Shown here in pieces: positions 1-14,136 of a stretch of 14,136 nucleotides of DNA. The position numbers and the translations under genes are program-made. Every line of letters begins with the position of its first letter. Position 1 is the first letter of the stretch. A model generated the notes under the pieces. The model had not been told where the DNA came from, did not search any database, and saw only the letters and a program-made list of their open reading frames with translations. Source of the stretch: Pedobacter sp. (GTDB lineage Bacteria; Bacteroidota; Bacteroidia; Sphingobacteriales; Sphingobacteriaceae); assembly GCA_028287885.1 (NCBI GenBank), contig JAQBOT010000359.1, positions 1-14,136 on the forward strand. Reading direction: 5' to 3'.

Positions 1-2
1 AA

Positions 3-194
3 CCCGCCTTAAACATGAGTAAGGAAGAATACAAGAGCACAGAGGCTCCAACGATTAACCACTTTTACGAAAAGCTGCTGCTGTTAAAAGATCTAATGAA
101 AACGGAGGCGGGCAGATCCATTGCAGAGAAACGTCACGAATTTATGCTTGCATACCTGGAAGAATTTTATCAGGAATGGGAAGGAAAAGCATAA
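3..194 (+). CDS. HD-domain phosphohydrolase (YedJ-like), C-terminal fragment
   Basis: The frame is open from the window edge to a TAA at 192-194, so only the last 63 codons are present. The visible text contains [16 protein letters not shown] followed by a helix with AEKRHEFM and LEEFYQEW. From memory this is the typical C-terminal tail of YedJ-type HD-superfamily metal-dependent phosphohydrolases, where the [12 protein letters not shown] segment follows the HD core. The catalytic HD residues would lie upstream of the window and cannot be checked. An in-frame ATG at 15 exists but starts in the middle of the conserved tail, so it is probably internal. The substrate is unknown. The next gene starts 62 bases downstream behind its own -7 element, so the two are probably separate transcription units. 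Family identification is fairly sure; function is not. Confidence 0.7.
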
Positions 195-231
195 TTCTGT
201 ATTCTTAACTAATATATTTAGCTATAATTAC

Positions 232-239
232 TATCTTTG
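232..239 (+). promoter_or_regulatory. Bacteroidota -7 promoter element for the radical SAM operon
   Basis: TATCTTTG is an exact match to the Bacteroidota -7 consensus TAnnTTTG. It lies 17 bases before the ATG at 257, which predicts transcription starting around 245 with a very short leader. I see no clear TTTG -33 element at the usual spacing, although the upstream stretch is AT-rich. Confidence 0.55.
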
Positions 240-256
240 TTAGCAAATATAGTACT

Positions 257-1513
257 ATGTCTGAACGGATTAGGGAAAAATTAAACATTCTCGCTGATGC
301 AGCTAAATATGATGTTTCCTGCTCTTCTAGTGGAAGCAATAGAAAAAATAACAATAAGGGATTGGGCGATGCAAGCTCTGCAGGTATTTGTCATACGTAC
401 ACAGCAGATGGACGCTGTGTTTCTTTATTAAAGATCCTGCTAACCAACCATTGCATTTTCGACTGCGCTTATTGCGTTTCACGTAAAAGTAACGACATTG
501 AACGTGCCGCCTTTACGGTTGAGGAAGTCGTTTCATTAACCATGAACTTCTACAGAAGAAATTATATAGAAGGCCTTTTTCTAAGCTCCGGTATTTTTAA
601 GAATGCGGATTTCACTATGGAACGCTTGCTGAAGGTGGTCAAGAAACTTCGACTCGAAGAAAACTTCAATGGGTATATTCACCTAAAGACCATTCCAGGG
701 GCGAGTGAAGAGCTCATTACCGAAGCTGGAATGTATGCAGACCGGATGAGCATTAACCTGGAAATGCCGACGGAAAGCGGTTTGAAGTTGCTTGCTCCAG
801 ACAAGTCGCATCAGGAAGTGATTGATCCTTTACAACTGGTACAAAACCAGATCGTTCAATTTAGGGAAGAAAAAAAGCTGATTAAAAGTGTTCCTAAGTT
901 TGTTCCGGCAGGTCAAAGCACCCAGATGGTTATCGGTGCAACGCCGGAAACAGATAAGGACATTATGCAAACGGCTGATACGTTCTACAAGAAATTCGAT
1001 TTGAAGCGCGTTTACTATTCCGGTTACATTCCCATAAGCAACGACAATCGCCTCCCAGTTCTGGGCACCCAGCCTCCATTGATCCGAGAAAACCGCTTGT
1101 ACCAAACAGACTGGTTGATGCGCTTTTATGGATTTAACGTAAATGAGCTGCTTAACGATGCAAATCCACATTTAGACATCGACATAGACCCAAAGCTAAG
1201 CTGGGCCCTAAGAAACATGCAACACTTTCCAGTCGACATCAATGTTGCAAATTATAAAATGATCCTTCGTATTCCCGGGATTGGAGTAAGTTCAGCGAAG
1301 AAGATTGTGCAAGCCAGAAAGTTCGGACGGCTTCGTATTGATCAACTGAAGAAAATCGGCGTTTCGTATAATCGCGCTCGCTATTTCATTCAGTGTGCAG
1401 ACACACCAGCCCAGCTTAAAGATTACCAGGGAACGCAGATTAAGTCTTTCATAATGGCGGAGAGTCAAAGCAAGTACCGGAATACGACCAATAACCAGCT
1501 TATTCTTTTTTGA
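257..1513 (+). CDS. Putative DNA modification/repair radical SAM protein with C-terminal HhH
   Basis: This 418-residue protein matches the family named 'putative DNA modification/repair radical SAM protein' (TIGR03916 as I recall). The radical SAM [4Fe-4S] motif is C66-xxx-C70-xx-C73, within NHCIFDCAYCVSR. Further family-typical segments are AKYDVSCSSSGS near residue 20, GRCVSLLKILLTN just before the cluster, NYIEGLFLSSGI, GYIHLKTIPGA, VPAGQSTQMVIGAT, KRVYYSGYIP and LYQTDWLMRFYGF. A helix-hairpin-helix lies at about residues 335-360 (ILRIPGIGVSSAKKIV), a non-sequence-specific DNA-binding fold. A nucleic-acid substrate is therefore plausible, but no reaction is established to my knowledge. Three extra cysteines (22, 45, 54) precede the cluster motif. 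The TGA stop shares one base with the next gene's ATG (TGATG), suggesting translational coupling. The start is supported by the -7 element just upstream. Confidence 0.9.
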   Translation: MSERIREKLNILADAAKYDVSCSSSGSNRKNNNKGLGDASSAGICHTYTADGRCVSLLKILLTNHCIFDCAYCVSRKSNDIERAAFTVEEVVSLTMNFYRRNYIEGLFLSSGIFKNADFTMERLLKVVKKLRLEENFNGYIHLKTIPGASEELITEAGMYADRMSINLEMPTESGLKLLAPDKSHQEVIDPLQLVQNQIVQFREEKKLIKSVPKFVPAGQSTQMVIGATPETDKDIMQTADTFYKKFDLKRVYYSGYIPISNDNRLPVLGTQPPLIRENRLYQTDWLMRFYGFNVNELLNDANPHLDIDIDPKLSWALRNMQHFPVDINVANYKMILRIPGIGVSSAKKIVQARKFGRLRIDQLKKIGVSYNRARYFIQCADTPAQLKDYQGTQIKSFIMAESQSKYRNTTNNQLILF

Positions 1514-2277
1514 TGATCACCTACGTTTATGACGGAAGTCTGGAAGGTCTGCTTACTGCTGTGTTCGAGTGGTTTGAAAGAAAGCCGGGCGCTGTGTTAT
1601 TGCGACAAAGCAACCTTCATCAGCCTGATGCATTTCAGGAAGACTTCGTTGTACTTTCAGATAGAAAAAAGGCAGATCGTGTTTGGGCTGCTCTGCAACA
1701 AAAGCTGAGTAAGGGCTGGATCCGGAGGATTTACTGCGCATACCTCTCAGAACTTCCGGAAACCCATTATCACATATTTGAGTTGGTTTGTTACGTGTTT
1801 CAAAGCGAAGCCGGCGCAGAAAACAACTTTGGGAATGAACATGTGTTATCTGTTTCTCAAACAGCCAAGAAAGTAGAGCGGGAGAAACACCGGATGGAAG
1901 CCTTTATCCGTTTTCAAGAGACTACAGATGGCATGTTCTATTGTGCAATAGATCCTGATTTCAATGTTCTACCTTTAATATCCAAGCACTTCAAAAACAG
2001 GTACGCGGATCAGCAGTGGATCATCTATGATTTAAAAAGAAAATTTGGTTTGTTTTATAACCTGGAGACTGTTGCGGAAATTGAAATGCAGTTTACTGCA
2101 GATACCATCAAAAGTAAAGCAAAGCCAGACATGATATCGGGCAAAGAAGCTCTTTACGCCATGTTATGGAAAGACTACTTTAACAGCACGAACATTCCGG
2201 CGAGGAAAAACACGAAACTGCATATTCAGCATGTCCCACGTCGTTACTGGAAATACTTAACGGAAAAACAGGTTTAA
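1513..2277 (+). CDS. DUF4130-type probable DNA metabolism protein, partner of the radical SAM protein
   Basis: I chose the ATG at 1513; an in-frame TTG one codon earlier is possible but unnecessary. The product has 254 residues. It begins with YVYDGSLEGLLTAVFEWF, typical of the 'probable DNA metabolism protein' family (DUF4130; TIGR03915 as I recall) found next to TIGR03916 radical SAM genes. Other hallmarks are MEAFIRFQ with DGMFYCAIDPDFNVLPLI in the middle, HFKNRYADQQWIIYD, and near the C terminus LWKDYFNSTNIPARKN followed by VPRRYWKYL. There is no signal peptide or membrane segment, so it is predicted to be cytoplasmic. In some bacteria I recall this domain fused to a uracil-DNA-glycosylase-like domain. 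Here the protein ends right after the DUF4130 region and no UDG gene is in the window. One-base overlap with the upstream stop indicates co-expression. Biochemical activity is unknown. Confidence 0.88.
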   Translation: MITYVYDGSLEGLLTAVFEWFERKPGAVLLRQSNLHQPDAFQEDFVVLSDRKKADRVWAALQQKLSKGWIRRIYCAYLSELPETHYHIFELVCYVFQSEAGAENNFGNEHVLSVSQTAKKVEREKHRMEAFIRFQETTDGMFYCAIDPDFNVLPLISKHFKNRYADQQWIIYDLKRKFGLFYNLETVAEIEMQFTADTIKSKAKPDMISGKEALYAMLWKDYFNSTNIPARKNTKLHIQHVPRRYWKYLTEKQV

Positions 2278-2282
2278 AATAA

Positions 2283-2312
2283 AAATCCCCCGCCATAACT
2301 GACAGGGGATTT
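2283..2312 (-). terminator. Rho-independent terminator after susE, possibly bidirectional
   Basis: An 8-bp perfect inverted repeat, AAATCCCC at 2283-2290 and GGGGATTT at 2305-2312, encloses a 14-base loop. Read on the minus strand, the GC part is followed by a T-rich tract (ATTTTTATTTT), as expected for termination of the sus operon, whose last stop codon is at 2331. On the plus strand the hairpin lies just after the DUF4130 stop but is followed only by a short T run, so termination there would be weaker. Confidence 0.75.
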
Positions 2313-2330
2313 GCTTGCTAGTTGACCGGG

Positions 2331-3485
2331 TTACAACCTTTGAATTGAAATACTTTCTGTCAATTGATTAATGGTAATCTTATAACGTCCTGCTCCGGGT
2401 ATTTTCCATTTAAAATCTGGGTTACCCCCTGGAACCAGTACCGCATCTGTACTTGTTATCCCTTCACCATTTGTGATTGGCATAAAGAAGTCTGCAGCCC
2501 AGCTACCTGTTGCTGTAGGCACCTTGAACTCACCAGCTTTTAAGTCACCCGTATACGTAAACTCGTATGGATTTCCTGCCGTCATTTGCATTGGTAATGG
2601 GTGATCAATGTCCCAACCGGCAATGGTGGCATCACCAACAAGATATAAGTTTGCATAGGGGGTAAATGGCTTAATTTCGATGAAGCTACTTGCGCTGATA
2701 TTTAAGAGAATCTTGTAGGCGCCGGGTGTTGTAATTTTCCATTTCTTATCTGGCATTCCGCCAGGAACAAACTCAACAGTTCTGTCAGTTAACTCTGGAT
2801 CGTTGACTGCCGGCATAAAAAAGTCGGCTCCCCAACTTCCTTTGGCAACTGGAATCTTGAATTCTCCCGCATTCAGCACAGCGTTATACTTGAATTGAAA
2901 ATTGTTGGTTGGATCGACTTTCATTTCATTTGGATTGTTGATATCCCAACCATTTGGAGTTGCGTCACCGACGATATATAATTGTGAATAAGCAGCACCT
3001 GTGGGTGCTGCCGTAATCTTAATTGTAATTACATTGGAAAGCGCCGATTTGCCGTTCACAGGCACAAATGCCTGAACAACCGCGGTTATATCTGTAGCCT
3101 TCCCAATCTCCAATCCCAATTTACCAACTACGATATTGTTTAGTTCTCCCATGGTGAACGCCTTGCTGCTACCTGTAACTTTTACCGTATCTACCGAAGC
3201 CGCACTTTTAAAAATGATGCCGTAGTTGATCTTAGAGTTCGCGGGGGCAGACCAGGATAACTTTAAGGCCTCATTGCTTGGCGTACTTGAGTTGATTACC
3301 ACTTCAGCCTGGGAGGCGGTAAGTTCGCCCGTTTCGAGGGGGAATACAGTAAATGCTCCTGGCTCCTTTTTACATGCACTAGAGCTGAGCAGCATTGCAA
3401 AAAAGAGTAAACACTTTAGAGTTACAACAGGAGATATGTTTGCCTTTCGGCCTATGTGCAAAAAGTTTTTGCTAATTATTCGCAT
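2331..3485 (-). CDS. susE: SusE/SusF-like outer-membrane glycan-binding lipoprotein
   Basis: This 384-residue lipoprotein has a somewhat long signal peptide whose hydrophobic stretch ends in a lipobox (SSSAC, lipidated Cys38), followed by KKEPG. Residues about 40-160 form a beta-rich SusE N-terminal domain (PF14292-like; LKLSWSAP, FKSAASVDTV). Two tandem modules of about 105 residues follow, starting at LYIVGDA (residue 169) and LYLVGDA (residue 280). Both have GWDI, GEFK(I/V)P, GSW.ADFFMP and VPGG.PD.KWKI. Each keeps three tryptophans (180/218/249 and 291/329/360), plausible sugar-stacking residues by analogy with Bacteroides SusE and SusF. It is predicted to sit on the cell surface beside SusCD and capture glycan. 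It is last in the operon, 42 bases after susD. The ligand cannot be deduced; an alpha-glucan is only a guess by analogy. Confidence 0.85.
   Translation of the reverse strand: MRIISKNFLHIGRKANISPVVTLKCLLFFAMLLSSSACKKEPGAFTVFPLETGELTASQAEVVINSSTPSNEALKLSWSAPANSKINYGIIFKSAASVDTVKVTGSSKAFTMGELNNIVVGKLGLEIGKATDITAVVQAFVPVNGKSALSNVITIKITAAPTGAAYSQLYIVGDATPNGWDINNPNEMKVDPTNNFQFKYNAVLNAGEFKIPVAKGSWGADFFMPAVNDPELTDRTVEFVPGGMPDKKWKITTPGAYKILLNISASSFIEIKPFTPYANLYLVGDATIAGWDIDHPLPMQMTAGNPYEFTYTGDLKAGEFKVPTATGSWAADFFMPITNGEGITSTDAVLVPGGNPDFKWKIPGAGRYKITINQLTESISIQRL
2334..2648 (-). repeat. SusE-like binding module, copy 2 of a tandem duplication
   Basis: Encodes residues 280-384 of the SusE-like lipoprotein. 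It aligns along its length with copy 1 at a period of 111 residues: LYLVGDA, GWDI, AGEFKVP, GSWAADFFMP and VPGGNPDFKWKI match LYIVGDA, GWDI, AGEFKIP, GSWGADFFMP and VPGGMPDKKWKI. The two are clearly homologous but diverged, so the duplication is old. Confidence 0.8.
2670..2981 (-). repeat. SusE-like binding module, copy 1 of a tandem duplication
   Basis: Encodes residues 169-272 of the SusE-like lipoprotein. A short linker (residues 273-279) separates it from copy 2. Its tryptophans W180, W218 and W249 are all retained at equivalent positions in copy 2, which argues that both modules bind ligand. Confidence 0.8.
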
Positions 3486-3527
3486 TTCAGTTTTTGAGTT
3501 TACGATAAAAAATATTTCAATTAATTA

Positions 3528-5246
3528 CTAATAGCCTGGATTCTGTTTCAAGTTTGGTGAAAGGTTTAGAATAGACTGGCCAATCGGATAAATCTTGGTG
3601 TGATCATCCGCATCAACTGGTTTGTCCCACCAAGTTCCTGAATTGAACACTCCCCATCGGATTAGATCAGTACGTCTTCTACCTTCAACAAGAAACTCAC
3701 GACCCCATTCGTCGATCATCTCTGCATTCGTGAGCTGACTTCCATCTGCTTTATAAAGACTCGGAGAACCAGCAGGATAATAACGCTTTCTTACCGCATT
3801 TAGGAGTTCCGCTGCTCCAGCCTTGTCCCCTGCCCGGAATTTGCATTCAGCCAAGGTATAATACACCTCCGCAAAGCGGATCTCGGCATATGCAGAGGTA
3901 ACCTTGTTTAGGTCATCTGATGGGTAGAGTGGATATTTTACTGGCCAGATTCCCGAATTATCATCTGCATGGTTCATATCTGAAACCTTATCCGCAGGTT
4001 TTTGTCCAGGAGGCGTGTCTTTAAACCAACCCACTTGATCACGTGAAAAGATGGTGTACCCTCTTAAACTTTTCACATTCTGCGTAGCGCCATTCGCATC
4101 TGTATAAGGTAAGTATCCATACAAAAACATACCTTCCCGCTTACTGCCTCCCAGGTTCTTATATTTCTTCAATCTCACATCATCTGGATATTTCTGAAAC
4201 TTTACGAAGGGCTTACCTAATGTATAAGCATACTCAACGCTGTCAACGTCTCTACCGGGTTGTAGTGCATAGCGCGTATTCATATCTCCAAAATCTTTAA
4301 ACCCAAAATACACCGCTGCTTTATGCGGCGCCATCGAATAGTACATATCACCGGAGTATTGCCAGTGTGTACGTGCAAAACTTCCCGGAAACGCAAACAC
4401 GGATTCAGGTGAAGTCCCATTATTGTAGTCGAAAGGTGCATCCCATCTACTCTCTAAAGAATAACTGCCATACTTTCCGGCAATTAAATCTTGTGCAATG
4501 GCTGCACATTCGGTGTATTTTTCCTGCCCGATGTACACGTTGGCATTCAGGTACAAGCGCATCAATAGAGACGCTGCCGCACCTTGTGTCCAACGGCCTA
4601 CACCAGTTATGCCAAGATCTTCTTTCTTTGGCAGACTAGGAATAGACTCCAACAATTCCTTCTCGATAAAGTCAAAGGTTTCCTGGGGACTTGCTTGATT
4701 AGGCATGGAACCTTCTCCTTTTACCTTCGTGATTAAAGGGATATTTCGGTACAAGTCGAATGCCCGCAAATTAAACCATGCTCTAAGTGTTTTAAGTTCA
4801 GCAACGTAGTCTGCCTTTTCTGCGTCGGTTAAATTGAATTTCGCAGGGTCTATGGCTTGAATATCTTCCAGCGAATTTGTAGATAAGCTCACGCCCTGGA
4901 ACAAGCCGGTCCACATGTCGTTTGTGTATCCGTCATTTACCGTCCAGGTATGGTAATGTGATCGCTGGTAAATGCCGCCGTCAAACCAATCGCCTTCGCG
5001 ATTCGGGGTCATGAGTTCATCGGTAGGCAACTCTTGTGCATAAAACAAGCCGCCACCCTGGATGGACCAGTATGCATGCTCAAACGGTCTTAAGAAATCC
5101 CGGATGACGTCTTCCTTGGTCTGAAGGAAGTTTGCTGAATTTATATTGTCGTACAATGTTTCATCTAGTTTTTTACAGCTGTTGATGGTTGTGAGCAACA
5201 CACAACTGCTTAAAATCCCCAATGTATATTTGATTGATAGTTTCAT
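3528..5246 (-). CDS. susD: SusD/RagB-family outer-membrane nutrient-binding lipoprotein
   Basis: This 572-residue protein is the surface lid of a SusCD transporter. Residues 1-23 form a lipoprotein signal peptide with lipobox INSC and lipidated Cys24, followed by KKLDETLYDNI, the usual start of mature SusD proteins. The N-terminal half has SusD helical-repeat features, including LRAWFNLRAFDLYRNIPLI and the aromatic-rich GGGLFYAQELPTDEL. The C-terminal PF07980-like part has IRFAEVYYTLAECKFRAGD, LLNAVRKRYYP and EWGREFLVEGRRRTDLIRWG, ending with IYPIGQ and NLKQNPGY. Length is normal for the family. It lies 17 bases after susC and 42 bases before susE, so the three are almost certainly co-transcribed. 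The sequence does not reveal the substrate. Confidence 0.95.
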   Translation of the reverse strand: MKLSIKYTLGILSSCVLLTTINSCKKLDETLYDNINSANFLQTKEDVIRDFLRPFEHAYWSIQGGGLFYAQELPTDELMTPNREGDWFDGGIYQRSHYHTWTVNDGYTNDMWTGLFQGVSLSTNSLEDIQAIDPAKFNLTDAEKADYVAELKTLRAWFNLRAFDLYRNIPLITKVKGEGSMPNQASPQETFDFIEKELLESIPSLPKKEDLGITGVGRWTQGAAASLLMRLYLNANVYIGQEKYTECAAIAQDLIAGKYGSYSLESRWDAPFDYNNGTSPESVFAFPGSFARTHWQYSGDMYYSMAPHKAAVYFGFKDFGDMNTRYALQPGRDVDSVEYAYTLGKPFVKFQKYPDDVRLKKYKNLGGSKREGMFLYGYLPYTDANGATQNVKSLRGYTIFSRDQVGWFKDTPPGQKPADKVSDMNHADDNSGIWPVKYPLYPSDDLNKVTSAYAEIRFAEVYYTLAECKFRAGDKAGAAELLNAVRKRYYPAGSPSLYKADGSQLTNAEMIDEWGREFLVEGRRRTDLIRWGVFNSGTWWDKPVDADDHTKIYPIGQSILNLSPNLKQNPGY

Positions 5247-5263
5247 TTCTTTGCTGTTAGAAG

Positions 5264-8209
5264 TTAAAATTTAAGTTGTAATCCCATCAGCAACTGCAAA
5301 GCAGAAGGATAATAAGATAAGCTCGGGTTAATTCCTGGATATAGACCGTTTATAGAAACAGACTCTGGATCGCCTCCAGACCACTTTGTGAACGTATAAA
5401 GGTTTCTACCATTCATGTACAGTCTTCCAGATTTGAAGTATTTTACCGGAGAACTGAAATTGTAACCTAAGGTCACATTGTCTAATTTGACGAAATCTCC
5501 TTTTTCAAGGAAATAGTCAGATAAGCTCGAATACGTATCTGAGTTGGTTAGGCTGGCATATTTTCCGCCATTGTACGCAGTAGAGAGCACATTAGCTCCC
5601 GTTTGAGTAACTGGAGTTCCCGCATAAAACGCAACGGTATTGAAAAGTTTGTAACCCAATGCAGCACGCAAGTACACGCTTAGATCGAATTGTTTATAAC
5701 GGAAGGTGTTCCCAAGGCTTGCGGTAAACTTTGGCAATCCGTTTCCAACGTATTGTTTGTCGTCATTTGTAGCTAAGTTGCCCGGTATGATCGTACCATC
5801 TTTCTTATACACCATTAACCTTCCGGTTGCATCAAGTCCCGCAGATTTAAGCATATAAAAGCTGCCAATGCGACGACCTTCTTCTAGTCGTTGTGATGTT
5901 CCTGGACTTCCCGGACTTGGCAAGCCCACAACATCAATGAATGGTTGCCCACTGTAAACATTGTTTGAAAAAGACACGAATTTATTGTTATTGGTTGCAC
6001 CGGCAAAGGAGAGCGAGTAGCTGAGTTCTTTACCACTGACAATATCCGCACTTAACTGAAGCTCCAAACCAGAGTTTTTCATGGTGCCCACGTTTGCGAA
6101 AGTGGTTGACTGTACATTCGGCGGTACAGAAACGTTATACGAGCCAAGTAGATCCTTGTTGGTGCGGACATAGTAGTTTACACTTCCTGAAAGCTTGCTT
6201 CCAAATAGTTCGAAATCCAAGCCCGCGTTGAAATTCTGAGCCTTTTCCCATTTAAGATCATAATTCGTATTTTGTTTTGGACCCCAAACCTGATAATAGG
6301 TTCCATTATATGGATAATAGCCAAAGCCTTGGTACAGATCCAGGGATTTATAATTTTCAAAGTCTTGATTACCTGTCTCGCCATAATCTGCACGAAGCTT
6401 TAGTTCGTTAACCCAAGGGATAGAGAAAAAATCCTCTTTACTTACTCGCCAACCAATTGAGGCTGCAGGAAAGTTTCCCCATTTGTGTTCGAAGCCAAAC
6501 TTAGAGGAACCTTCATGTCTAAGACTGGCAGAGAGATAATACTTACTTGCGAAATCATAGTTTACTCGTCCAAAGAAAGCGATCAGCTTGGAATCATTTT
6601 TGAAAGAGCCGACGTTATTTTGACCTTCTTCCAGGTTCCAAAGCCCTGCGCCCAAATTGTTGTATGTTAACACATCCGATGGAAAGCCCTGGTTAGAGCC
6701 ATCTAGTCCGGAGTCATTAAAGTAAAAATATGAATACCCACCAAGCACCTTTAGGTTGTGCTTACCGGTCGTCAGTGCATAATTACCAATCCACTCGAAA
6801 CTTTTTTGATCGCTCTTATTGTAATTTCTGGAAGCGAAACTCCTCCCTCCATTTGCATTGATCAAATTGGTGTTGTAAGAAGGCGTAAAATCATAATCGA
6901 AGAAGTCTTTGCCTTGCTGCGCAAGCGTTACCTGAGTTGAAAAATTCTTAAATAGGTTAAGCTTGATGCCAGCATTCCAATCCAGGTACTTACCTTCAGT
7001 ACCATCTAGAACCGTATTCATCTCTTCAACGGGATTGTAGACTCCGCTGAATCCGGTATTTACATTATAATATCGGATTGGGTTTACAGGATCATAAACC
7101 GGATAGGTGGGGTTTAAAGTAATAGCCCGGTTGAAAGCATCCCTACTCGCATTGTTCGACTTTAAGTTTCTAGGCGCAATACTTGCCGTAATTGTATAAA
7201 GATCATTATCAGACGTATGGCTTAGATTCAGACGCGCACCATATTCGATTTTGGAAGCCCTAAGATCAAGTCCTTCTGCATTCCTATAGTCGAAAGAGAG
7301 TAGGTAATTCGTTTTAGTATTACCACCAGAAGCTTGAAGGGTTTGTTTGTTTGAAAGTGCATAGTCGCGACTGACTGCCTTAAGCCAATCTGTATTACCA
7401 CCGAAATCTTTACCTCTGTTTTGTGTGAGGAACTCATCTCGGGATAGTGATTTCAATCCATTCGTCGGTAGGTCGAACGTTGCATATCCATCATAAAATA
7501 CTTGGGACTGGCCAGTACCTTTTTTAGTGGTAATGACAATAACGCCATTACTGCCTCGGGTACCATAGATGGCAGAAGCAGCACCACCTTTTAAAACGTC
7601 AATTGATTCAATGTCGTTCTGATTTAGGTTGTCGATGTTTCCACCTGCAACCCCATTGATAACATACAAAGGTCCCAGTCCGGCAGATCTCGATGACGCA
7701 CCTCTAAGCTGAATCGTTGGGCCGGAGTTCGGGTCGGAAGGTGCTTGATTGGTTATGGTAAGGCCAGCTACCTTTCCTTGTACACTCATTAGAGCACCAT
7801 TACCGCCAACGGTTAATAGATCTTTCGAAGACAAGTGAGTTACGGCACTGGTCACTTCTTTTTTGTTTAGCGTTCCATATCCAATCGCTACCACATTAAC
7901 AGTCTCGAGCGATGTGCTGCTTGGTTGAAGGCTAACACGAATTGGCGAACTGCCAATTGCAACTTCTTGTGAAGAATAACCGATAAAGGAAACAACTAAC
8001 GTACTGGCCGAAGGGGGCACAACGAGTTTAAATTTTCCGGCTGCGTCCGTTCCGGATTTAATGCTACTGCCTTTAACGGTGACGACGGCCCCTGGAATTG
8101 GAGCTTGCTTTTCATCTAGTACGGTTCCATTTATTGTCTTGTCTTGAGCTTTAAGGTGCAGGCTCAGGCAAAACAATAAAAGTTGAAATAGTAAAATTTT
8201 AACTTTCAT
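5264..8209 (-). CDS. susC: SusC/RagA-family TonB-dependent outer-membrane transporter
   Basis: This 981-residue protein is the beta-barrel pore that works with SusD, energised by the TonB-ExbBD system. A signal peptide ends at about LKA-21. Residues about 25-95 form a carboxypeptidase-regulatory-like beta-sandwich (INGTVLDEKQAPIPGAVVTVKG, ending FIGYSSQEV). This is followed by the SusC hallmark VVAIGYGTLNKKEVTSAV at about 104-122. The plug spans roughly 115-235 and ends with IDVLKGGAASAIYGTRG and GVIVITTKKG. The rest is barrel, ending in a terminal Phe (LQLLMGLQLKF) as expected for outer-membrane barrels. No N-terminal STN domain precedes the sandwich, so direct signalling to an anti-sigma factor of the FecA/FecR type is unlikely. 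It is the first gene of the susCDE operon and divergent from the histidine kinase. Confidence 0.96.
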   Translation of the reverse strand: MKVKILLFQLLLFCLSLHLKAQDKTINGTVLDEKQAPIPGAVVTVKGSSIKSGTDAAGKFKLVVPPSASTLVVSFIGYSSQEVAIGSSPIRVSLQPSSTSLETVNVVAIGYGTLNKKEVTSAVTHLSSKDLLTVGGNGALMSVQGKVAGLTITNQAPSDPNSGPTIQLRGASSRSAGLGPLYVINGVAGGNIDNLNQNDIESIDVLKGGAASAIYGTRGSNGVIVITTKKGTGQSQVFYDGYATFDLPTNGLKSLSRDEFLTQNRGKDFGGNTDWLKAVSRDYALSNKQTLQASGGNTKTNYLLSFDYRNAEGLDLRASKIEYGARLNLSHTSDNDLYTITASIAPRNLKSNNASRDAFNRAITLNPTYPVYDPVNPIRYYNVNTGFSGVYNPVEEMNTVLDGTEGKYLDWNAGIKLNLFKNFSTQVTLAQQGKDFFDYDFTPSYNTNLINANGGRSFASRNYNKSDQKSFEWIGNYALTTGKHNLKVLGGYSYFYFNDSGLDGSNQGFPSDVLTYNNLGAGLWNLEEGQNNVGSFKNDSKLIAFFGRVNYDFASKYYLSASLRHEGSSKFGFEHKWGNFPAASIGWRVSKEDFFSIPWVNELKLRADYGETGNQDFENYKSLDLYQGFGYYPYNGTYYQVWGPKQNTNYDLKWEKAQNFNAGLDFELFGSKLSGSVNYYVRTNKDLLGSYNVSVPPNVQSTTFANVGTMKNSGLELQLSADIVSGKELSYSLSFAGATNNNKFVSFSNNVYSGQPFIDVVGLPSPGSPGTSQRLEEGRRIGSFYMLKSAGLDATGRLMVYKKDGTIIPGNLATNDDKQYVGNGLPKFTASLGNTFRYKQFDLSVYLRAALGYKLFNTVAFYAGTPVTQTGANVLSTAYNGGKYASLTNSDTYSSLSDYFLEKGDFVKLDNVTLGYNFSSPVKYFKSGRLYMNGRNLYTFTKWSGGDPESVSINGLYPGINPSLSYYPSALQLLMGLQLKF

Positions 8210-8237
8210 GTTTTAACAGGATTTATATTGGTGTCCG

Positions 8238-8245
8238 CGAAAGTA
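8238..8245 (-). promoter_or_regulatory. Candidate -7 element for susCDE
   Basis: Read on the minus strand this is TACTTTCG, one mismatch from TAnnTTTG, about 28 bases before the susC ATG. The position fits a short-leader Bacteroidota promoter. No convincing -33 TTTG lies at the right distance, so this is tentative. Confidence 0.35.
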
Positions 8246-8331
8246 TAAGTTTTTTCCTGAACGACTTTGAAGCAAGCCCGGTGATTATTGTATCTTTTCT
8301 AACACAAACCCGCGAAATTCCTCTGCTGTGG

Positions 8332-8374
8332 CGAATATTATATGCCATTCGGATGTTAAATCATCGAATATTAT
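8332..8374. repeat. Exact 10-bp direct repeat in the susC/kinase divergent intergenic region
   Basis: CGAATATTAT occurs at 8332-8341 and again at 8365-8374, 33 bases apart start to start, about three helical turns. Each copy contains the palindrome AATATT, so a dimeric regulator could bind each. The rest of the 261-base region (8210-8470) is AT-rich and shows no gene, hairpin or RNA element I can support. Chance occurrence is not excluded. Confidence 0.4.
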
Positions 8375-8470
8375 CAACTTAAAAAAGTATCCCTGTTGGT
8401 AATAGAAGATTGTTTTTGAATAAAATCAAAGTGAATTTAAGTTTACAGATATACTTCGTAGATTGCTAGC

Positions 8471-9496
8471 ATGAAATTAAGTGTTTTGGTTTTAATTACT
8501 GCATTTGCAGTGGCGCTCTCAATTGGCCTGGTAAATTTTCATTTTCAACAAAGCTTGTACTACATGCTGGTGTCGTTTGGTATATCCTTTCTGACCAGTT
8601 TCATTGTTTTTTACTACTTGCTCGAAAAGTACATCTACACAAAAATCACTTTAATTTATAAGTTGATCCACAACTTAAAACTTGGAAAGGACCTAAAAGA
8701 AGCTATTGGTGAATACGTAAGTTCCGATCCTCTAAATGATGTGGAACAGGAAGTAAAGGCCTGGGCAGGAGAAAAAAAGAAAGAAATTGACTTGCTGAAG
8801 AAGCAAGAACAATTCAGACGTGAATTCTTATCAAACGTTTCCCATGAATTCAAGACGCCGTTGTTCGCGATACAGGGTTACGTGGAAACCTTGAAAGACT
8901 GCATTGTTGACGATCCGGAAAGGGCAAAAGGTTTTCTTGAAAAAGCGAGTAAAAACGTAGAACGTCTAAGCTATCTTATTGATGATTTGGATTCGATCTC
9001 ACGTTTAGAAAGTGGTGAAATTCCGATCAATTATGAAAAGTTCGACGTTGTTCTTCTCGCTAAGGAAGTAATGGATAGTTTGGAAGAAAAAGCCAAAAAA
9101 CGCAACATCAAGTTGTTTTTCAAAGAGAAATACATGAATCCGGCCTATGTAAGTGCAGATCGGGAGAAGATATCCCAGGTGTTATTTAACCTTCTACAAA
9201 ACTCACTTAAATACGGAAGAGAGAATGGTTTTACGGCCATTAAGATCTTTGAACTTCATGATCAGTATTTGATTGAGGTTACGGACAATGGAATCGGCAT
9301 TGATGAAAAGCAACTCCCTCGTCTGTTCGAACGCTTTTACCGCGTAGACTCACACCGTTCCAGGGAAGTTGGAGGTACAGGACTTGGACTTGCTATCGTT
9401 AAACACATCCTGGAAGCTCACCAGCAAATAATTTCTGTGCGAAGTACACTGCAGATCGGAACCACCTTCGCATTTACCTTGCAGAAGTACAGCTAA
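8471..9496 (+). CDS. PhoR-like membrane sensor histidine kinase
   Basis: This 341-residue protein has two N-terminal membrane segments (about residues 3-22 and 29-51) with only a few residues between them, so it has almost no periplasmic sensor domain. A charged linker (about 90-115, coiled-coil-like) leads to the HisKA domain with phosphoacceptor His125 in FLSNVSHEFKTPL. The HATPase region has the N box around N240/N244 (FNLLQNSLKYG), G1 DNGIGID (D272), F box LFERFYRVD and G2 GGTGLGLAIVKH (about 301-311). All catalytic motifs look intact. Short two-helix kinases of this type with adjacent phosphate genes are usually PhoR orthologues that sense through transporter and PhoU proteins; that assignment is inferred from context. 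The cognate response regulator is not in the window. The gene lies 162 bases upstream of the DUF47 gene in the same direction, separated by a promoter. Confidence 0.88.
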   Translation: MKLSVLVLITAFAVALSIGLVNFHFQQSLYYMLVSFGISFLTSFIVFYYLLEKYIYTKITLIYKLIHNLKLGKDLKEAIGEYVSSDPLNDVEQEVKAWAGEKKKEIDLLKKQEQFRREFLSNVSHEFKTPLFAIQGYVETLKDCIVDDPERAKGFLEKASKNVERLSYLIDDLDSISRLESGEIPINYEKFDVVLLAKEVMDSLEEKAKKRNIKLFFKEKYMNPAYVSADREKISQVLFNLLQNSLKYGRENGFTAIKIFELHDQYLIEVTDNGIGIDEKQLPRLFERFYRVDSHRSREVGGTGLGLAIVKHILEAHQQIISVRSTLQIGTTFAFTLQKYS

Positions 9497-9527
9497 CTTT
9501 CCGTTGCCCAAAGGACAAATGAATAAG

Positions 9528-9545
9528 TTAACATTAACTTAACAT
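9528..9545 (+). promoter_or_regulatory. Putative Pho box: two 11-bp-period TTAACAT direct repeats
   Basis: TTAACAT occurs at 9528-9534 and again at 9539-9545, separated by 4 bases, giving an 11-bp period. The 7+4+7 layout is the same as the E. coli PhoB box, and the half-site resembles the B. subtilis PhoP half-site TTAACA. It covers the position of a -33 element relative to the -7 at 9554-9561, where PhoB-type activators bind. The gene downstream belongs to a phosphate-uptake operon. Regulation by the upstream kinase's partner is inferred. Confidence 0.6.
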
Positions 9546-9553
9546 TGTGTTTA

Positions 9554-9561
9554 TACATTTG
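9554..9561 (+). promoter_or_regulatory. -7 promoter element for the DUF47-pit operon
   Basis: TACATTTG is an exact match to TAnnTTTG. There is no good -33 TTTG at the usual spacing; the space is filled by the TTAACAT repeats, consistent with an activator-dependent promoter. The predicted start near 9567 leaves a leader of about 90 bases before the ATG at 9659. Confidence 0.6.
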
Positions 9562-9658
9562 TAGGATAATTTATGGTTGAACGGCAAGCTGAACAATTAG
9601 TGTTTATTATTGTAATGAAGAGACTTGCCCCCAAACCGTAGAAATTAAAATCATATAA

Positions 9659-10300
9659 ATGAACAACATGTTTAAGTTCTTTACACCTAAAGACAAAAAA
9701 TTCCAGCCCCTATTCGAACAAGCTGGAAGTAATGTTCTAAAAATATCAGAAGCGCTGTTGCTTGCATTAAGTGCAACCGAAATGGACAAGCGTAAGGAAT
9801 ATATCAAAGAAGTGGAAAGATTAGAGCATGTAGGCGATGATATTACCCATTCAATCTTCCTGGAACTTAGCAAGAACTTCATTACTCCTTTTGACAGGGA
9901 AGACATCCATTCTCTAGCAAGTGCGATAGATGACATTGCAGATTACATCCATGCATCTGCCAGCAACATTGAGTTGTACAACATCACCAACATCGGAGAT
10001 GCAATGATCAAGCTTGCAGAACTGCTTGTTGAAATGTGTACAGACCTAGAAAAAGCGATCAAAGAATTAAGAAGCTTTAAAAATATCCGGGTGATTGCTG
10101 ATGCCTGCGTAAGGATAAATAGCGGAGAAAATCAAGCAGACTACGTTTGTAATCTTGCCATTGCACGTTTATTTGAGTTTGAGACAAATGCCATCGAACT
10201 TATTAAACAGAAAGAAGTGCTTCAAACACTGGAACTGGCTACAGATAAATGCGAAGATGCAGCAAACGTGCTGGAGTCTATTTTGGTTAAAAACGCTTAA
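9659..10300 (+). CDS. DUF47/PhoU-like accessory protein of the Pit phosphate transporter
   Basis: This all-helical 213-residue protein belongs to the DUF47 family (PF01865, PhoU_div), which is repeatedly paired with PiT transporters. It starts with FKFFTPKDKKFQPLFEQAGSN, the typical opening of the family. The two halves carry PhoU-like metal-site motifs: VERLEHVGDDITHSI (about residues 45-59) with DREDIHSLASAIDDIADYI (about 79-97), and FEFETNAIELIKQKE with LELATDKCEDAANVLE at the C-terminal end. It is predicted to be cytoplasmic and to modulate Pit activity or PhoR signalling, by analogy with PhoU and characterised DUF47 proteins. An internal ATG three codons later is an alternative start and would begin directly at FKFF. 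The gap to pit is 10 bases, so the two genes are co-transcribed. Confidence 0.9.
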   Translation: MNNMFKFFTPKDKKFQPLFEQAGSNVLKISEALLLALSATEMDKRKEYIKEVERLEHVGDDITHSIFLELSKNFITPFDREDIHSLASAIDDIADYIHASASNIELYNITNIGDAMIKLAELLVEMCTDLEKAIKELRSFKNIRVIADACVRINSGENQADYVCNLAIARLFEFETNAIELIKQKEVLQTLELATDKCEDAANVLESILVKNA

Positions 10301-10310
10301 TACATAAAAA

Positions 10311-11321
10311 ATGATAACTCCCTTATTGGTTGTTGTAATAATATTGGCTATTGGGTTCGACTACATCAATGGTTTTCATGATGCCGCCAATTCAATTGCA
10401 ACAATCGTTTCTACAAAGGTTCTGTCTCCCTTCCTGGCAGTACTCTGGGCAGCCCTATTTAACTTGGTTGCATATTTTGTGTTCACGGAACATAAAGTGG
10501 CAAACACGATTGCCAAAACGGTATTTGAACAATTTATAACTTTAGAGGTTATTCTCGCCGGCTTAATAGCTGCTGTTACATGGAACTTATTTACCTGGTG
10601 GTTTGGAATTCCTTCGAGTTCGTCACACACCTTGATTGGCGGATTTGCAGGCGCCGGCATGGCGAAAGCTGTTACCGTAGGTAGCAGTGCATTGGCTGCG
10701 GTTAACTTTACGCCGATATTAAAGGTGATCTCCTTTATTGTTCTTGCCCCGATTATCGGAATGATCATCTCGGTTATCATTTCTATAATCATCATGTACA
10801 TTTCCAAGAATGCACGTCCGTCAACTGCTGATAAATGGTTCAAAAGACTGCAGTTGGTCTCTTCTGCTGCCTTGAGTTTCACGCATGGCGGTAATGATGC
10901 GCAGAAAGTGATGGGAATTATCTATGTGGCCATGATTGCTGCAAAAGCCCTAAATCCTGGGGACGATATGCCTGAATGGATTCCCATCTCCTGTTATGCT
11001 GCAATAGCTCTAGGAACAATGAGCGGCGGATGGAAGATCGTGAAGACGATGGGTACAAAGATTACAAAAGTGAACGCTTTCGAGGGCGTAGCAGCAGAAA
11101 GTGCCGGCGCAATAACCCTGGGGATTACAGAGCATTTTGGTATTCCTGTCTCGACTACCCACACCATTACTGGATCCATTGTGGGCGTAGGCTTACTTAA
11201 ACGTGTCTCGGCGGTTCGCTGGGGTGTTACGCTGAGTCTCCTTTGGGCTTGGATATTGACTATCCCGGTTTCGGCGACGCTTGCCGCACTGGTTTACACG
11301 ATAATATATTTTCTATTCTAA
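10311..11321 (+). CDS. pit: PiT-family low-affinity inorganic phosphate transporter
   Basis: This 336-residue inner-membrane protein has about nine to ten hydrophobic segments and belongs to PF01384 (PiT). The two inverted-repeat signature motifs are present: GFDYINGFHDAANSIAT (about 15-31, with D24 and N27) and SFTHGGNDAQKVMG (H192, N195, D196). Each half also has the matching re-entrant motif, GIPSSSSHTLIGG and GIPVSTTHTITGS. It would import phosphate, probably as a metal-phosphate or proton/sodium symport. The length is that of the short bacterial Pit type, without the long central loop of E. coli PitA. It is the last gene of its operon, after the DUF47 gene, and converges on the anti-sigma gene with a 62-base gap in which I see no clear terminator hairpin. 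Confidence 0.94.
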   Translation: MITPLLVVVIILAIGFDYINGFHDAANSIATIVSTKVLSPFLAVLWAALFNLVAYFVFTEHKVANTIAKTVFEQFITLEVILAGLIAAVTWNLFTWWFGIPSSSSHTLIGGFAGAGMAKAVTVGSSALAAVNFTPILKVISFIVLAPIIGMIISVIISIIIMYISKNARPSTADKWFKRLQLVSSAALSFTHGGNDAQKVMGIIYVAMIAAKALNPGDDMPEWIPISCYAAIALGTMSGGWKIVKTMGTKITKVNAFEGVAAESAGAITLGITEHFGIPVSTTHTITGSIVGVGLLKRVSAVRWGVTLSLLWAWILTIPVSATLAALVYTIIYFLF

Positions 11322-11383
11322 TTATTCACGGTTTTAATCTTAGCTGCCACAGACAAGTCGGATTTGTTAGAAGACTCCTGCGG

Positions 11384-12034
11384 TTAAAACTGAATGTGAA
11401 CACGCATAGTTTTTGATGGGTCGGCTGGAATTGTCCATGCCGGACCCGTCTTAAGCAAACGAACAGACTCTTCGCCATACGTCTTCCCGGGACTATTTAC
11501 GACCTCAATGGCATGAGGTCTGCCACTTTCATCTACCTTAAAAGAAAGTTCTACAGATTTCCCAATCTTACCGCCGGCAATTAGTTTATTATTCTTGTTT
11601 ATATAGGTAAAAAACGCAGCCCAACCATTGACCGGCTTCATCGCCTCCATGGAATGCGAGGGATCCAAATTAACTTCTACTGTTGTGGATTGCTTTGCAA
11701 GCTGGTTGAAACTATTGTTCTGGCGCATCCAAAACATGATGGTTACAGCAACAAAGATTACTGCTGCTGTTGCCGCTATACTCAAGCGCTGCCAGGTAAT
11801 TACGGACTTGCTTTTATCCTCCTTGTGTTCTGCAATCCGGCTTTCCAGTGCCTTTTGAAGCAAGGATAAGGATTGTAGTGAGCGCTTAGGCGACTGACTT
11901 AGCCCTGCCAATGCTTGTGCCACAAAGGGATCTTCCAGGGCAGCGCGTTCTACCCTATTCATCATTTTGGCGTCAAGCTTACCATCCAGGTAGTCTTCCA
12001 GCACATCAAAATCTACCGCATCGTTATTTATCAC
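11384..12034 (-). CDS. Membrane anti-sigma-like protein with TonB C-terminal-like domain
   Basis: This 216-residue protein starts at a GTG; an in-frame TAG three codons upstream rules out a longer form, and the next Met would remove the conserved N-terminal motif. The cytoplasmic N terminus has DFDVLEDYLDGKLD and ERAALEDPFVAQALAGL (about residues 8-45), a pattern common at the start of Bacteroidota anti-sigma-like proteins encoded beside ECF sigma factors. One membrane helix lies at about 84-103. The periplasmic part ends with a TonB C-terminal-like fold (about 136-216: GWAAFFTYI, IGKSVELSFKVDESGRPHAI, GEESVRLLKTGPAW). Unlike larger relatives I recall, it has no carboxypeptidase-regulatory-like domain between the helix and the TonB-like region. 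It overlaps the sigma gene by 11 bases, indicating translational coupling. It probably restrains that sigma factor and responds to an envelope signal; this is inferred. Confidence 0.75.
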   Translation of the reverse strand: MINNDAVDFDVLEDYLDGKLDAKMMNRVERAALEDPFVAQALAGLSQSPKRSLQSLSLLQKALESRIAEHKEDKSKSVITWQRLSIAATAAVIFVAVTIMFWMRQNNSFNQLAKQSTTVEVNLDPSHSMEAMKPVNGWAAFFTYINKNNKLIAGGKIGKSVELSFKVDESGRPHAIEVVNSPGKTYGEESVRLLKTGPAWTIPADPSKTMRVHIQF

Positions 12035-12602
12035 TGCTCTTCTCTATACAAATTTTTAAATTGCGTTTACCGTTCTGAATATAGCTTTTGACCTTAAGCA
12101 AATCATAGCCGGTAATCTCCGCAATCTCTTTATAACACTTCTCCTGCAAGTAAAAAAGGTCAACACAAGTTCGTTGCTCCGGAGTAAGCGATTTCATACA
12201 ACTTTCCATTACCAGAAGCTGCTGCTCTTTCGCATGGTCTATATCAAGATGCATAAAATCGACGTTTTCCACAAAACTTTCGTCCAGGGAGACCATATTG
12301 TTTTTGGAAGCTTTTCTTAAGAGCATCAAACAATGGTTTCTGCACAACACATGCAGCCAGCTTTTGAAGTTCTGGATTTCATGTGCCCGTACCTTCACAA
12401 TTAACTCCTCAAAGATTTGCATTACGGCATCCTTGCTCTGCTCTTCTTCTTTTAAATAGTTCAGGCAAACCCCGAAAACCAGGTGCATATATCGGTTGTA
12501 GAGTACACCCAGGATCTCCAGGTCGCCCGTTTCTTTGTATTGGGCGATCAGTGTAGCGTCTTCGAGTTGCTTTAATCTGGACGTATTCTTAATGAATTTC
12601 AA
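12024..12602 (-). CDS. ECF-type RNA polymerase sigma factor
   Basis: This 192-residue sigma-70-family protein has region 2 at about residues 28-98 (LYNRYMHLVFGVCLNYL, EEEQSKDAVMQIFEELI, NFKSWLHVLCRNHCLMLLRK) and region 4 at about 136-185 (LTPEQRTCVDLFYLQEKCYKEIAEITGYDLLKVKSYIQNGKRNL in several blocks). Regions 1 and 3 are absent, as in ECF sigma factors. The start is unusual: the frame is closed by a TAA two codons upstream of a TTG at 12602, and no ATG occurs before region 2, so TTG is the likely start. A near-consensus -7 element lies just upstream. The product would direct polymerase to a small regulon, probably including itself, held in check by the overlapping membrane protein downstream. 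Targets are not visible here. Confidence 0.9.
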   Translation of the reverse strand: MKFIKNTSRLKQLEDATLIAQYKETGDLEILGVLYNRYMHLVFGVCLNYLKEEEQSKDAVMQIFEELIVKVRAHEIQNFKSWLHVLCRNHCLMLLRKASKNNMVSLDESFVENVDFMHLDIDHAKEQQLLVMESCMKSLTPEQRTCVDLFYLQEKCYKEIAEITGYDLLKVKSYIQNGKRNLKICIEKSSDK

Positions 12603-12624
12603 GGGCAGTTAACTCAATTGTAAT

Positions 12625-12632
12625 CAAGTATA
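12625..12632 (-). promoter_or_regulatory. Candidate -7 element for the ECF sigma operon
   Basis: Read on the minus strand this is TATACTTG, one mismatch from TAnnTTTG, 22 bases before the TTG start at 12602. It lies between the acyltransferase stop (12644) and the sigma gene, so the sigma pair may be transcribed independently of the upstream gene. No matching -33 element was found. Confidence 0.4.
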
Positions 12633-12643
12633 AAAATAAAAAC

Positions 12644-14136
12644 CTAGGAATGGCGCTGCTCTGCTTCCGATATTGCATTTTTTATTAACTGTTTGGCAAC
12701 TAAAGTACCCTGGTAACTTAAATGATCATCATCAAAGTACAAGACCGACTTATCCTTGAGCACCATAACTTTGTTGTTCTTCCGGAATAGCCTATTGACG
12801 TCAACAACCTTGCAGTTGCTAAATTTCGAAGCAAACACGTTTAGTTCAGCATTGCTCACCTGAACACTATCATTTGCAGCCAAGGGGAGGTACTGTGCTT
12901 TCCCATTTGGTCTAAGGCCGAGGAAACTTAAGTATTGGGTAGCGTTATAGTCCTCTATTTCCACAACATCAGGCTGTTCATTGAGTAGTATAACAGAGGT
13001 TCCATTTTGACCCGCTAATGAAATTAAACTTTCTAAATTATGGAAATCTGCAGCTGAACGGATTGACCATCTGCAGGAAACCATCAGCACTTTCGGCTTC
13101 CAGGTATTTAAATTATGCACCAGGCCTTTGGCATAGATCTTCCATTGTTCATTGGTAAAGGCGCCTATGTCTGCCGATGGGTCTTCTTTGTAAGGTATTT
13201 TAAACAATGGACTCGTGCCATTAATGGTATAAATGGATGCTTTGATATTTAATTCTGACCCAATCTCGTCGACCACCCTTGCCCACATTCCCCCATGTGA
13301 ATCGCCCAGGAGTACCATTGAAGGATTTCCCTTCCCTTTTCCTGCAGGAATTCCGCCATGCGCATAGGTGGCTTTAAATGACGGCTTTTGTAAAGGCACT
13401 TGTACTCCGGCTCGATCTGACTGTTTTGTTTGCCAGGTTGTCGAAACATGAGGGTTTATGTTGTAGTAAAGCCCATAGAACTTCGTCGTATTAAAAACCA
13501 GCGGATAGTTAGCCTTAACCAGGTCTGACCGAAAAACAGCAATTAGCGAAAGACAGATTACAAATAGGAACGTGACCAGGCTTAATATCGGCTTAAACTT
13601 TCGTGTGGGAATTTCAACAAGCAGGTAAGAGGCAAGGGATAAGACAGAGATGATGATTACAATCCAGGCTAGATACTCAGTTCGGCTGTAATGGGCCAAT
13701 CCTCCGTAATGCCTGGCGAGCACAATTACCGGCCAATGCCAGAGATAGAGTGAATAGGATATCTTTCCTACAAATACCAGCACTTTGTTGCTTAGTAGCC
13801 TACCGGCGATATTGTCTGCGGAGGCAAAGCCGATGAAAAGCACAGCGCCGAGTACCGGAAGGACACTAGCCATACTGATGACCTGCGTGGATGGAAAAAG
13901 AAAGTAGGATGCCAGTATGAAGATCAGCCCAAGTATCGATAGTAGATTCCGGCTTGCAGCACCAAGCAAAGCGCGCAATTGAGCAGCTGTGGCCGCAAGC
14001 AAACCTCCCGCAGCCAACTCCCAGGCTCTCGTTGGTAGAAGATAAAAGCCTTATTTCGGGTAAGCAATGGAGGTATAAAGAAAAAGTCCTAAGCTTATGA
14101 TCGTGATGATGGCCAGTACAGGCCATGTTTTTACTT
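12644..14136 (-). pseudogene. OafA-type acyltransferase/SGNH protein, partial, interrupted by an in-frame stop
   Basis: The coding frame runs from the window edge (14136) to TAG at 12644, but codon 14051-14053 is TAA. Before it the frame reads a hydrophobic segment (WPVLAIITIISLGLFLYTS, then IAYPK). Immediately after it comes GFYLLPTRAWEL, the conserved OafA/Acyl_transf_3 motif. Both sides fit the same protein in the same frame, so this looks like a nonsense mutation, not a gene start. Further along are ISYSLYLWHWP, several membrane helices, and a C-terminal SGNH domain with GDSH (nucleophile Ser at 13298-13300) and DDDHLSYQG (catalytic Asp/His at 12722-12733). Intact homologues O-acetylate surface polysaccharides. 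After the stop, only TTG (14017) or a later ATG could restart translation, giving a product without the N-terminal acyltransferase half. A sequencing error cannot be excluded, because the remaining codons are clean. Confidence 0.7.

Follow-up and report, generated by a model that had tools for sequence, protein, structure and literature searches.

A LexA-boxed radical SAM-DUF4130 gene pair of Pedobacter with a candidate clamp-binding tail, predicted to act on damaged DNA

The stretch of DNA analyzed (the window) comprises 14,136 nucleotides, positions 1 to 14,136 of the forward strand of contig JAQBOT010000359.1, from the Pedobacter sp. assembly GCA_028287885.1. It carries a two-gene operon, made up of a radical S-adenosylmethionine (SAM) gene of the TIGR03916 family and a DUF4130 gene of the TIGR03915 family (Table 1). 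The pair is best read, with a probability of about 0.6, as a system induced in the SOS response, in which a radical enzyme tethered to the sliding clamp would process damaged DNA. The radical SAM protein matches TIGR03916 with 689.6 bits (curated cutoff 343.5; model positions 1-414 of 415) and exceeds the Pfam gathering scores of Radical_SAM and HHH_3, the C66-x3-C70-x2-C73 motif being present. The second protein scores 271.0 bits against TIGR03915 (cutoff 112.25) and 175.1 bits against DUF4130 (cutoff 27). The two genes overlap by one base; the second open reading frame (ORF) was listed from a TTG at 1510, and the ATG at 1513 is used here. The initial annotation, made from the sequence alone, had described a CxxxCxxC radical SAM enzyme with a C-terminal helix-hairpin-helix, translationally coupled through TGATG to a DUF4130 protein, and all of this is borne out. 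The LexA box ahead of the operon, the clamp-type motif at the C-terminus and three extra cysteines of the radical SAM protein go beyond it.

Both genes were monitored in 247 Bacteroidota and 219 Pseudomonadota genomes. In Bacteroidota the radical SAM gene resides in 82 genomes, 80 of them with a match over the cutoff and 2 with fragments that score 165-330 bits. TIGR03916 is matched at E 0.001 in 136 genomes; 54 short or weak matches, most of those listed falling in the helix-hairpin-helix region, are not counted. DUF4130 is likewise found in 82 genomes, and both genes in 80. DUF4130 thus accompanies 80 of the 82 radical SAM genes, an association far beyond chance, and in the other two genomes the radical SAM gene runs into the contig end on the side expected for its partner. 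The genes share contig and strand in 78 of the 80 pairs, fewer than 200 bases separating the matched profiles in 69 of those. In Pseudomonadota the radical SAM gene is over the cutoff in 34 genomes, all of which have DUF4130; the 185 negative genomes include 2 with DUF4130 over the cutoff and 1 with a remnant. The genome survey proposed along with the initial annotation therefore finds the genes linked, and the pair is a conserved, physically and evolutionarily linked unit that probably acts on DNA. Co-occurrence and repair annotation are the existing NCBIfam and published view. The pair is widespread, yet no described activity was found.

In PMC8565304, Bacteroidetes regulators are shown to be S24-family, phage-repressor-like proteins that bind CTAA-N5-TTAG or GGA-N5-TCC, and the COG1573-COG4277 operon is predicted to belong to the Bacteroidetes SOS regulon; reports of SOS membership in Verrucomicrobia and Alphaproteobacteria are also cited there. 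The host genome (3.4 Mb in 498 contigs) holds 38 perfect CTAA-N5-TTAG sites, including the one ahead of the operon; at this density the chance of a site within a given 100 bases is about 0.001. Perfect boxes precede recA, ruvB, an RNase_T/GIY-YIG gene and a LexA-like gene of the XRE-S24 kind by 29-72 bp. Another overlaps the start listed for a radical SAM gene of the PA0069 type, and one separates an AlkB-like oxygenase gene from a divergent gene that is ImuA-like by eye, the 113-residue piece of which gave no family match. Several other intergenic boxes precede genes with no evident SOS role. Both features of a Bacteroidetes SOS regulon, a perfect promoter box and an XRE-S24 repressor gene with a box of its own, are found. 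The window box is followed by a TAnnTTTG sequence, which we take to be the Bacteroidetes-type -7 promoter box. By pattern alone TAnnTTTG shows no enrichment in the window (12 occurrences, 14.7 expected); six near relatives (four Pedobacter, two more of the window's genus) have it too, at a distance of 9-11 bases after the LexA box, which would put a bound repressor at the promoter. The promoter of its own that the initial annotation assigned to the operon gains here a candidate.

The CTAA box lies between -52 and -25 in all six radical SAM-positive genomes of the same family. CTAA boxes were found in 7 of the first 30 survey loci, and three GGA boxes in 1. Further survey loci, repeats of the first 30 left out, add a CTAA box in L045 alone (same genome as L010) and single GGA matches in L043, L048 and L053. 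Boxes were also sought, from 150 bases upstream to 20 into the gene, in the best 80 of 588 named loci: CTAA boxes are found in 24 (0.48 expected from base shuffles), GGA boxes in 15 (0.80 expected), either kind in 38, and more than one GGA box (two to four) in 14. In 14 of these 80 loci a gene of the LexA-like cluster lies divergently upstream, at 26-538 bp, and 12 of those 14 have GGA boxes; one such divergent protein was checked individually. Upstream of the Pseudomonadota copies, CTGT-N8-ACAG, the Escherichia-type LexA box, is found in 4 of 34 (0.11 expected), and GTTC-N7-GTTC in 23 (0.14 expected). The latter is the alphaproteobacterial box, as quoted in PMC8565304. Seven upstreams have no box, L206 and six Moraxellaceae-like ones (L125 and L190 being the same genome). 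Lineage-matched LexA-type boxes of four kinds thus recur upstream of many, not all, relatives, a pattern not easily accounted for unless the pair serves in the damage response, and control of the operon by LexA is a well supported prediction.

The initial annotation had suggested either base repair or base modification. The four kinds of boxes favour a damage response, and a DNA modification enzyme, epigenetic or anti-phage, is very unlikely: the NCBIfam name reads 'DNA modification/repair' and base modification is within the reach of a radical SAM enzyme, but neither protein matches PADLOC, and the one PHROGs match is limited to a 42-residue stretch of the radical SAM protein. Anti-phage defence was rejected on the PADLOC result, and phage origin on the PHROGs result and the phage records given below.

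Proteins that bind the sliding clamp share a penta- or hexapeptide motif. The radical SAM protein ends in a motif of this type, and its Q414 is invariant in 51 divergent sequences, the sole invariant residue after F377. Tails were compared in 148 distinct complete proteins, left from 164 copies after dropping 14 duplicates and 2 short ones, by means of the pattern Q[LM]x[LMIF] followed, directly or one residue later, by a hydrophobic residue. The pattern occurs within the last 25 residues in 134 of the 148 (mean 4.1 and maximum 14 in 500 shuffles), and strict QL[SD]LF in 53 (0.1 in shuffles). The 14 remaining tails include two QIKLF/QINLF, four QTSLFG, QASLF or QGSLF, seven that read QLVLPG then LF, IF, MG or LG, all from a single distant survey family, and L039, where QLSLF is present further upstream. 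In the last 12 residues a clamp-type motif is found in 132 of 148 radical SAM proteins; among the other mechanically predicted ORFs of the same loci that reach 150 amino acids, it is found in 3 of 793. Among the database relatives listed, 120 of 120 radical SAM proteins have the tail, and 0 of 120 DUF4130 proteins. In the structural model the tail scores below 50 in the predicted local distance difference test (pLDDT) and is probably disordered; a conserved motif in a flexible tail, as looked for in a sliding-clamp binder, is what is found, and tethering to the clamp through QLILF is likely.

The same residues might instead contact another partner such as DUF4130, the motif being short and conserved at the extreme C-terminus of proteins that rarely lack this partner. 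This is rather improbable, because the variation seen (QLSLF, QMALW, QLGFGF, QLSLAL) follows the penta- and hexapeptide clamp consensus, and the PA0069 type, a different family, has the same kind of tail: the relaxed pattern is found in 119 of 120 listed proteins, that of the host included, and the main pattern in 91. The PA0069 family may be a second SOS radical SAM family riding the clamp. The host member (L089:2567-3637, contig C342) has the LexA box at its start and ends in QTSLF. The AlkB-like 2-oxoglutarate oxygenase of the same genome (L106:530-1135, contig C177) begins with MEQLSFFGEAG, which contains a clamp-like QLSFF. No earlier report of a radical SAM enzyme linked to the sliding clamp was found in the literature searched. 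If clamp binding holds, a radical SAM enzyme would be tied to the replication machinery, and we know of no other.

Residues C22, C45, H46 and C54 are all invariant in the 51 aligned radical SAM sequences; the three cysteines, in addition to those of the CxxxCxxC motif, suggest a second metal site or cluster (residues 20-53 of the model have pLDDT below 50). The predicted barrel, which together with CxxxCxxC is typical of the radical SAM superfamily, has its best fold matches in lipoyl synthase, HydE and biotin synthase. The protein would be a radical enzyme that binds DNA; its cluster, SAM cleavage and DNA binding are all predicted from sequence. Direct lesion reversal of the spore photoproduct lyase type, in line with the association with SplB-like photolyases suggested in PMC3765255, would fit the common superfamily and the same kind of regulation, the box and clamp-type tail of the PA0069-type protein of the host, and the name DNA repair photolyase given by one source to relatives of that PA0069-type protein. 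It is unlikely, though, since TIGR04070 (spore photoproduct lyase) is not matched at E 1e-3 by the window protein and three extra cysteines are invariant; the fold matches listed above point elsewhere, and alone exclude nothing.

Residues 1-202 of the DUF4130 model resemble, by Foldseek, the DHH-like fold of RecJ, Cdc45 and NrnA. No match to PF01368 (DHH) or PF02272 (DHHA1) is found at E 1e-3, and a single-sequence search of the PDB returned one unrelated match (E 0.46). The protein is predicted to have this fold and to lack the DHH motifs. A C-terminal pattern is conserved in 121 of 129 distinct DUF4130 domains. The other eight are L002, cut by the locus end, two Bacteroidota copies from genomes with no radical SAM gene, and five more; in L158, L199, L208, L216 and L218 the DUF4130 match stops at the domain boundary, one of them also varying by one residue. 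The C-terminus is lost in both Bacteroidota copies that have no radical SAM gene (L040 and L041), and loss is partial in G476, where the match ends at model position 227 of 243. In G330 a DUF4130 remnant below the cutoff precedes a UdgX domain. The notion that the C-terminus is always lost along with the radical SAM gene was rejected, as G459 has no such gene and keeps the full match. Neighbour clustering places a LexA-like gene near the operon in 15 loci, L041 included. In the latter (L041:2480-4190) the LexA-like gene adjoins the truncated DUF4130 gene, and the arrangement looks like the remnant of a decaying operon.

The initial annotation had mentioned that the partner is sometimes fused to a domain of the uracil-DNA glycosylase (UDG) type. 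Such fusions are seen in Pseudomonadota and not in this lineage. TIGR03914 (UdgX) is over the cutoff in 25 of the 34 radical SAM-positive Pseudomonadota genomes and missing in 9; it follows DUF4130 on the same contig in 24, and is split between contigs in the 25th. It has no match in the host genome, and its cutoff is reached by none of 13 named relatives and by none of the 247 Bacteroidota genomes, 82 of which have DUF4130; weaker UDG-superfamily matches occur in 183 of the 247. Pfam finds no UDG domain in the DUF4130 protein of the window. Two Pseudomonadota genomes with no radical SAM gene have profile-checked DUF4130-UdgX fusions (L251 and L252), both beside an ImuA-like gene of 34-38 bits (family cutoff 150); L252 additionally carries genes for an IMS-family polymerase and for an error-prone polymerase. 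The operon is labelled a 'UDG-based base excision repair system' (COG1573-COG4277) in PMC8565304, and the Pseudomonadota fusions would suit base excision repair with the radical SAM protein as an accessory of the glycosylase. With UdgX missing from Bacteroidota the label does not describe the version found there, and the pair, not the glycosylase, makes up the core; glycosylase-based repair is accordingly a minor prospect. From the LexA box one can tell when expression is to be expected, and a lineage lacking UdgX points to a substrate of the pair itself and not to uracil excision.

Several observations weigh against an SOS-induced, clamp-tethered radical system. Genome-wide, CTAA-N5-TTAG is not enriched (38 sites, against 80 for the reversed pattern) and 23 of the 38 sites fall inside predicted ORFs, so that the case for the LexA box is one of position and conservation. 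Neither Bacteroidetes box is found in 22 of the first 30 survey loci, in 42 of the best 80 of the 588 named loci, or in any of the 17 loci with Flavobacterium or Chryseobacterium in their titles. All LexA boxes tested are missing ahead of the Moraxellaceae copies, and a UmuDAb-type palindrome was not found in their six upstreams, two from one genome. The sections of PMC8565304 consulted do not state that induction of the COG1573-COG4277 operon was measured there. For clamp binding, the prediction comes from just one short motif. With the DUF4130 model, Foldseek returns two matches that reach E 0.001 (best 1.9e-4), followed by unrelated folds; a profile of 18 DUF4130 sequences retrieves from the PDB S100-A6 entries only (E 0.03-0.07), and hhalign of 129 DUF4130 domains with 30 Bacteroidota RecJ proteins gives a probability of 0.1%. 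Lacking sequence support, the DHH-like fold stays a prediction. DUF4130-UdgX is kept in two Pseudomonadota genomes that have no radical SAM gene, and the partner may act alone there. No biochemical study of either family was found in the open-access literature.

On the gene linkage, the LexA-type boxes and the conserved motifs, all observed in the sequences, and on the predicted folds of both proteins, the following mechanism may be built. LexA would repress the operon, and expression would follow DNA damage. The clamp motif and the helix-hairpin-helix would bring the radical SAM protein to newly replicated or stalled DNA, where cleavage of SAM at the CxxxCxxC cluster would yield a 5'-deoxyadenosyl radical, probably assisted by a second cluster held by the N-terminal cysteines. 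Hydrogen would be abstracted from a damaged nucleotide in the grip of DUF4130. This compact, RecJ/Cdc45-like protein with no DHH catalytic motifs would hold and position the DNA; in many Pseudomonadota the added UdgX-type domain would recognise a flipped-out pyrimidine. The outcome may be direct reversal, a product tailored for translesion synthesis, or the resolution of a crosslink. A bolder version, tentative and short of even odds, has the radical SAM enzyme wired to the replisome, riding the clamp during the SOS response with a catalytically dead, mini-RecJ/Cdc45-like partner that grips it together with DNA and a second Fe-S cluster, and acting on lesions at stalled forks. If true, the pair and the PA0069-type enzymes with their clamp tags would together make up a class of radical repair enzymes that work at forks, and to our knowledge no known pathway resembles it. 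A family long unexplained gains in this way directly testable predictions.

Copies from Acinetobacter and Psychrobacter (L122, L125, L187, L188) are 62-70% identical to the window radical SAM protein, the remaining Pseudomonadota copies about 48-54%, which suggests transfer from Bacteroidota. Relatives were found in 10 of 50,697 phage records, 8 of which are human faecal contigs with no annotation; two 240 kb 'Acinetobacter phage' records with the radical SAM gene (CAKLQF020000004.1 and CAKLQH020000003.1) may be bacterial contigs. Relatives were also found in 158 of 72,556 plasmid records, 142 called non-mobilizable and some chromosome-sized. Synteny among related genomes seems to account for most other large neighbour clusters, and an antisense frame of GC-rich loci for a cluster of 13 loci. 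In the window the operon is followed by a cluster of glycan-uptake type (2331-8209, minus strand; SusE/SusF-like, SusD-like and SusC-like genes) and by a row of genes for a PhoR/PnpS-like histidine kinase, a PhoU-like (DUF47) protein and a phosphate-transporter-family protein (8471-11321, plus strand).

Table 1. Features of the radical SAM-DUF4130 operon and their positions in the window
Feature	Position	Strand	Remarks
CTAA-N5-TTAG box CTAATATATTTAG, perfect, Bacteroidetes non-canonical LexA type	209-221		36 bp upstream of the radical SAM gene
Candidate -7 promoter box TATCTTTG, TAnnTTTG	232-239	+	10 bases behind the LexA box
Radical SAM gene, TIGR03916 family	257-1513	+	418 amino acids
Three-cysteine N-terminal segment (C22, C45 then H46, C54)	320-418	+	Candidate auxiliary cluster or metal site
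CxxxCxxC cluster motif (C66, C70, C73) of the radical SAM protein	452-475	+	
Helix-hairpin-helix, residues 325-366 of the radical SAM protein	1229-1354	+	HHH_3, 29.0 bits (cutoff 27)
QLILF at the C-terminus of the radical SAM protein	1496-1510	+	Candidate sliding-clamp-binding motif, low-confidence tail
TGATG stop/start overlap	1511-1515	+	One base (A) common to both genes; read directly
DUF4130/TIGR03915 gene	1513-2277	+	254 amino acids; starts at the ATG of TGATG
Conserved DUF4130 C-terminal segment I228-K252 (R244-Y245-W246, E251-K252)	2194-2268	+	Candidate contact to the radical SAM partner
Inverted repeat AAATCCCC / GGGGATTT, 3' of the operon	2283-2312		Possible terminator; read directly

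An uncharacterised TIGR03916/TIGR03915 pair was already known, as was, from PMC8565304, its predicted SOS membership in the phylum. New within the literature searched are the conserved clamp-type tail and the extra cysteine site of the radical SAM protein, the predicted DHH-like fold and the partial co-decay of the C-terminus in DUF4130, and the evidence that Bacteroidota can dispense with the glycosylase. The window operon is an ordinary member of the TIGR03916/TIGR03915 pair (COG4277, DUF4130), with typical gene order and close spacing. Many Pseudomonadota have UdgX as a fusion to DUF4130, downstream of the same radical SAM gene; this lineage lacks it. Enzymes of the SplB and PA0069 types are likewise radical SAM proteins, linked to DNA repair and to the SOS regulon, and the PA0069 tail is also of the clamp type; the window protein differs from them in the helix-hairpin-helix, the three extra cysteines, the near-obligate DUF4130 partner and the missing TIGR04070 match. 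Compared with lipoyl synthase, it has a different cysteine spacing, the helix-hairpin-helix motif and the clamp-type tail. DUF4130 has in residues 1-202 a predicted fold in common with RecJ, Cdc45 and NrnA, but is shorter, has no Pfam DHH or DHHA1 domain and shows no sequence-profile similarity to RecJ. Pol IV and ImuB are clamp-binding SOS proteins; they have a tail of the same Q-L-x-L-F type and the same SOS control, the domain tethered here being a radical SAM enzyme and not a polymerase.

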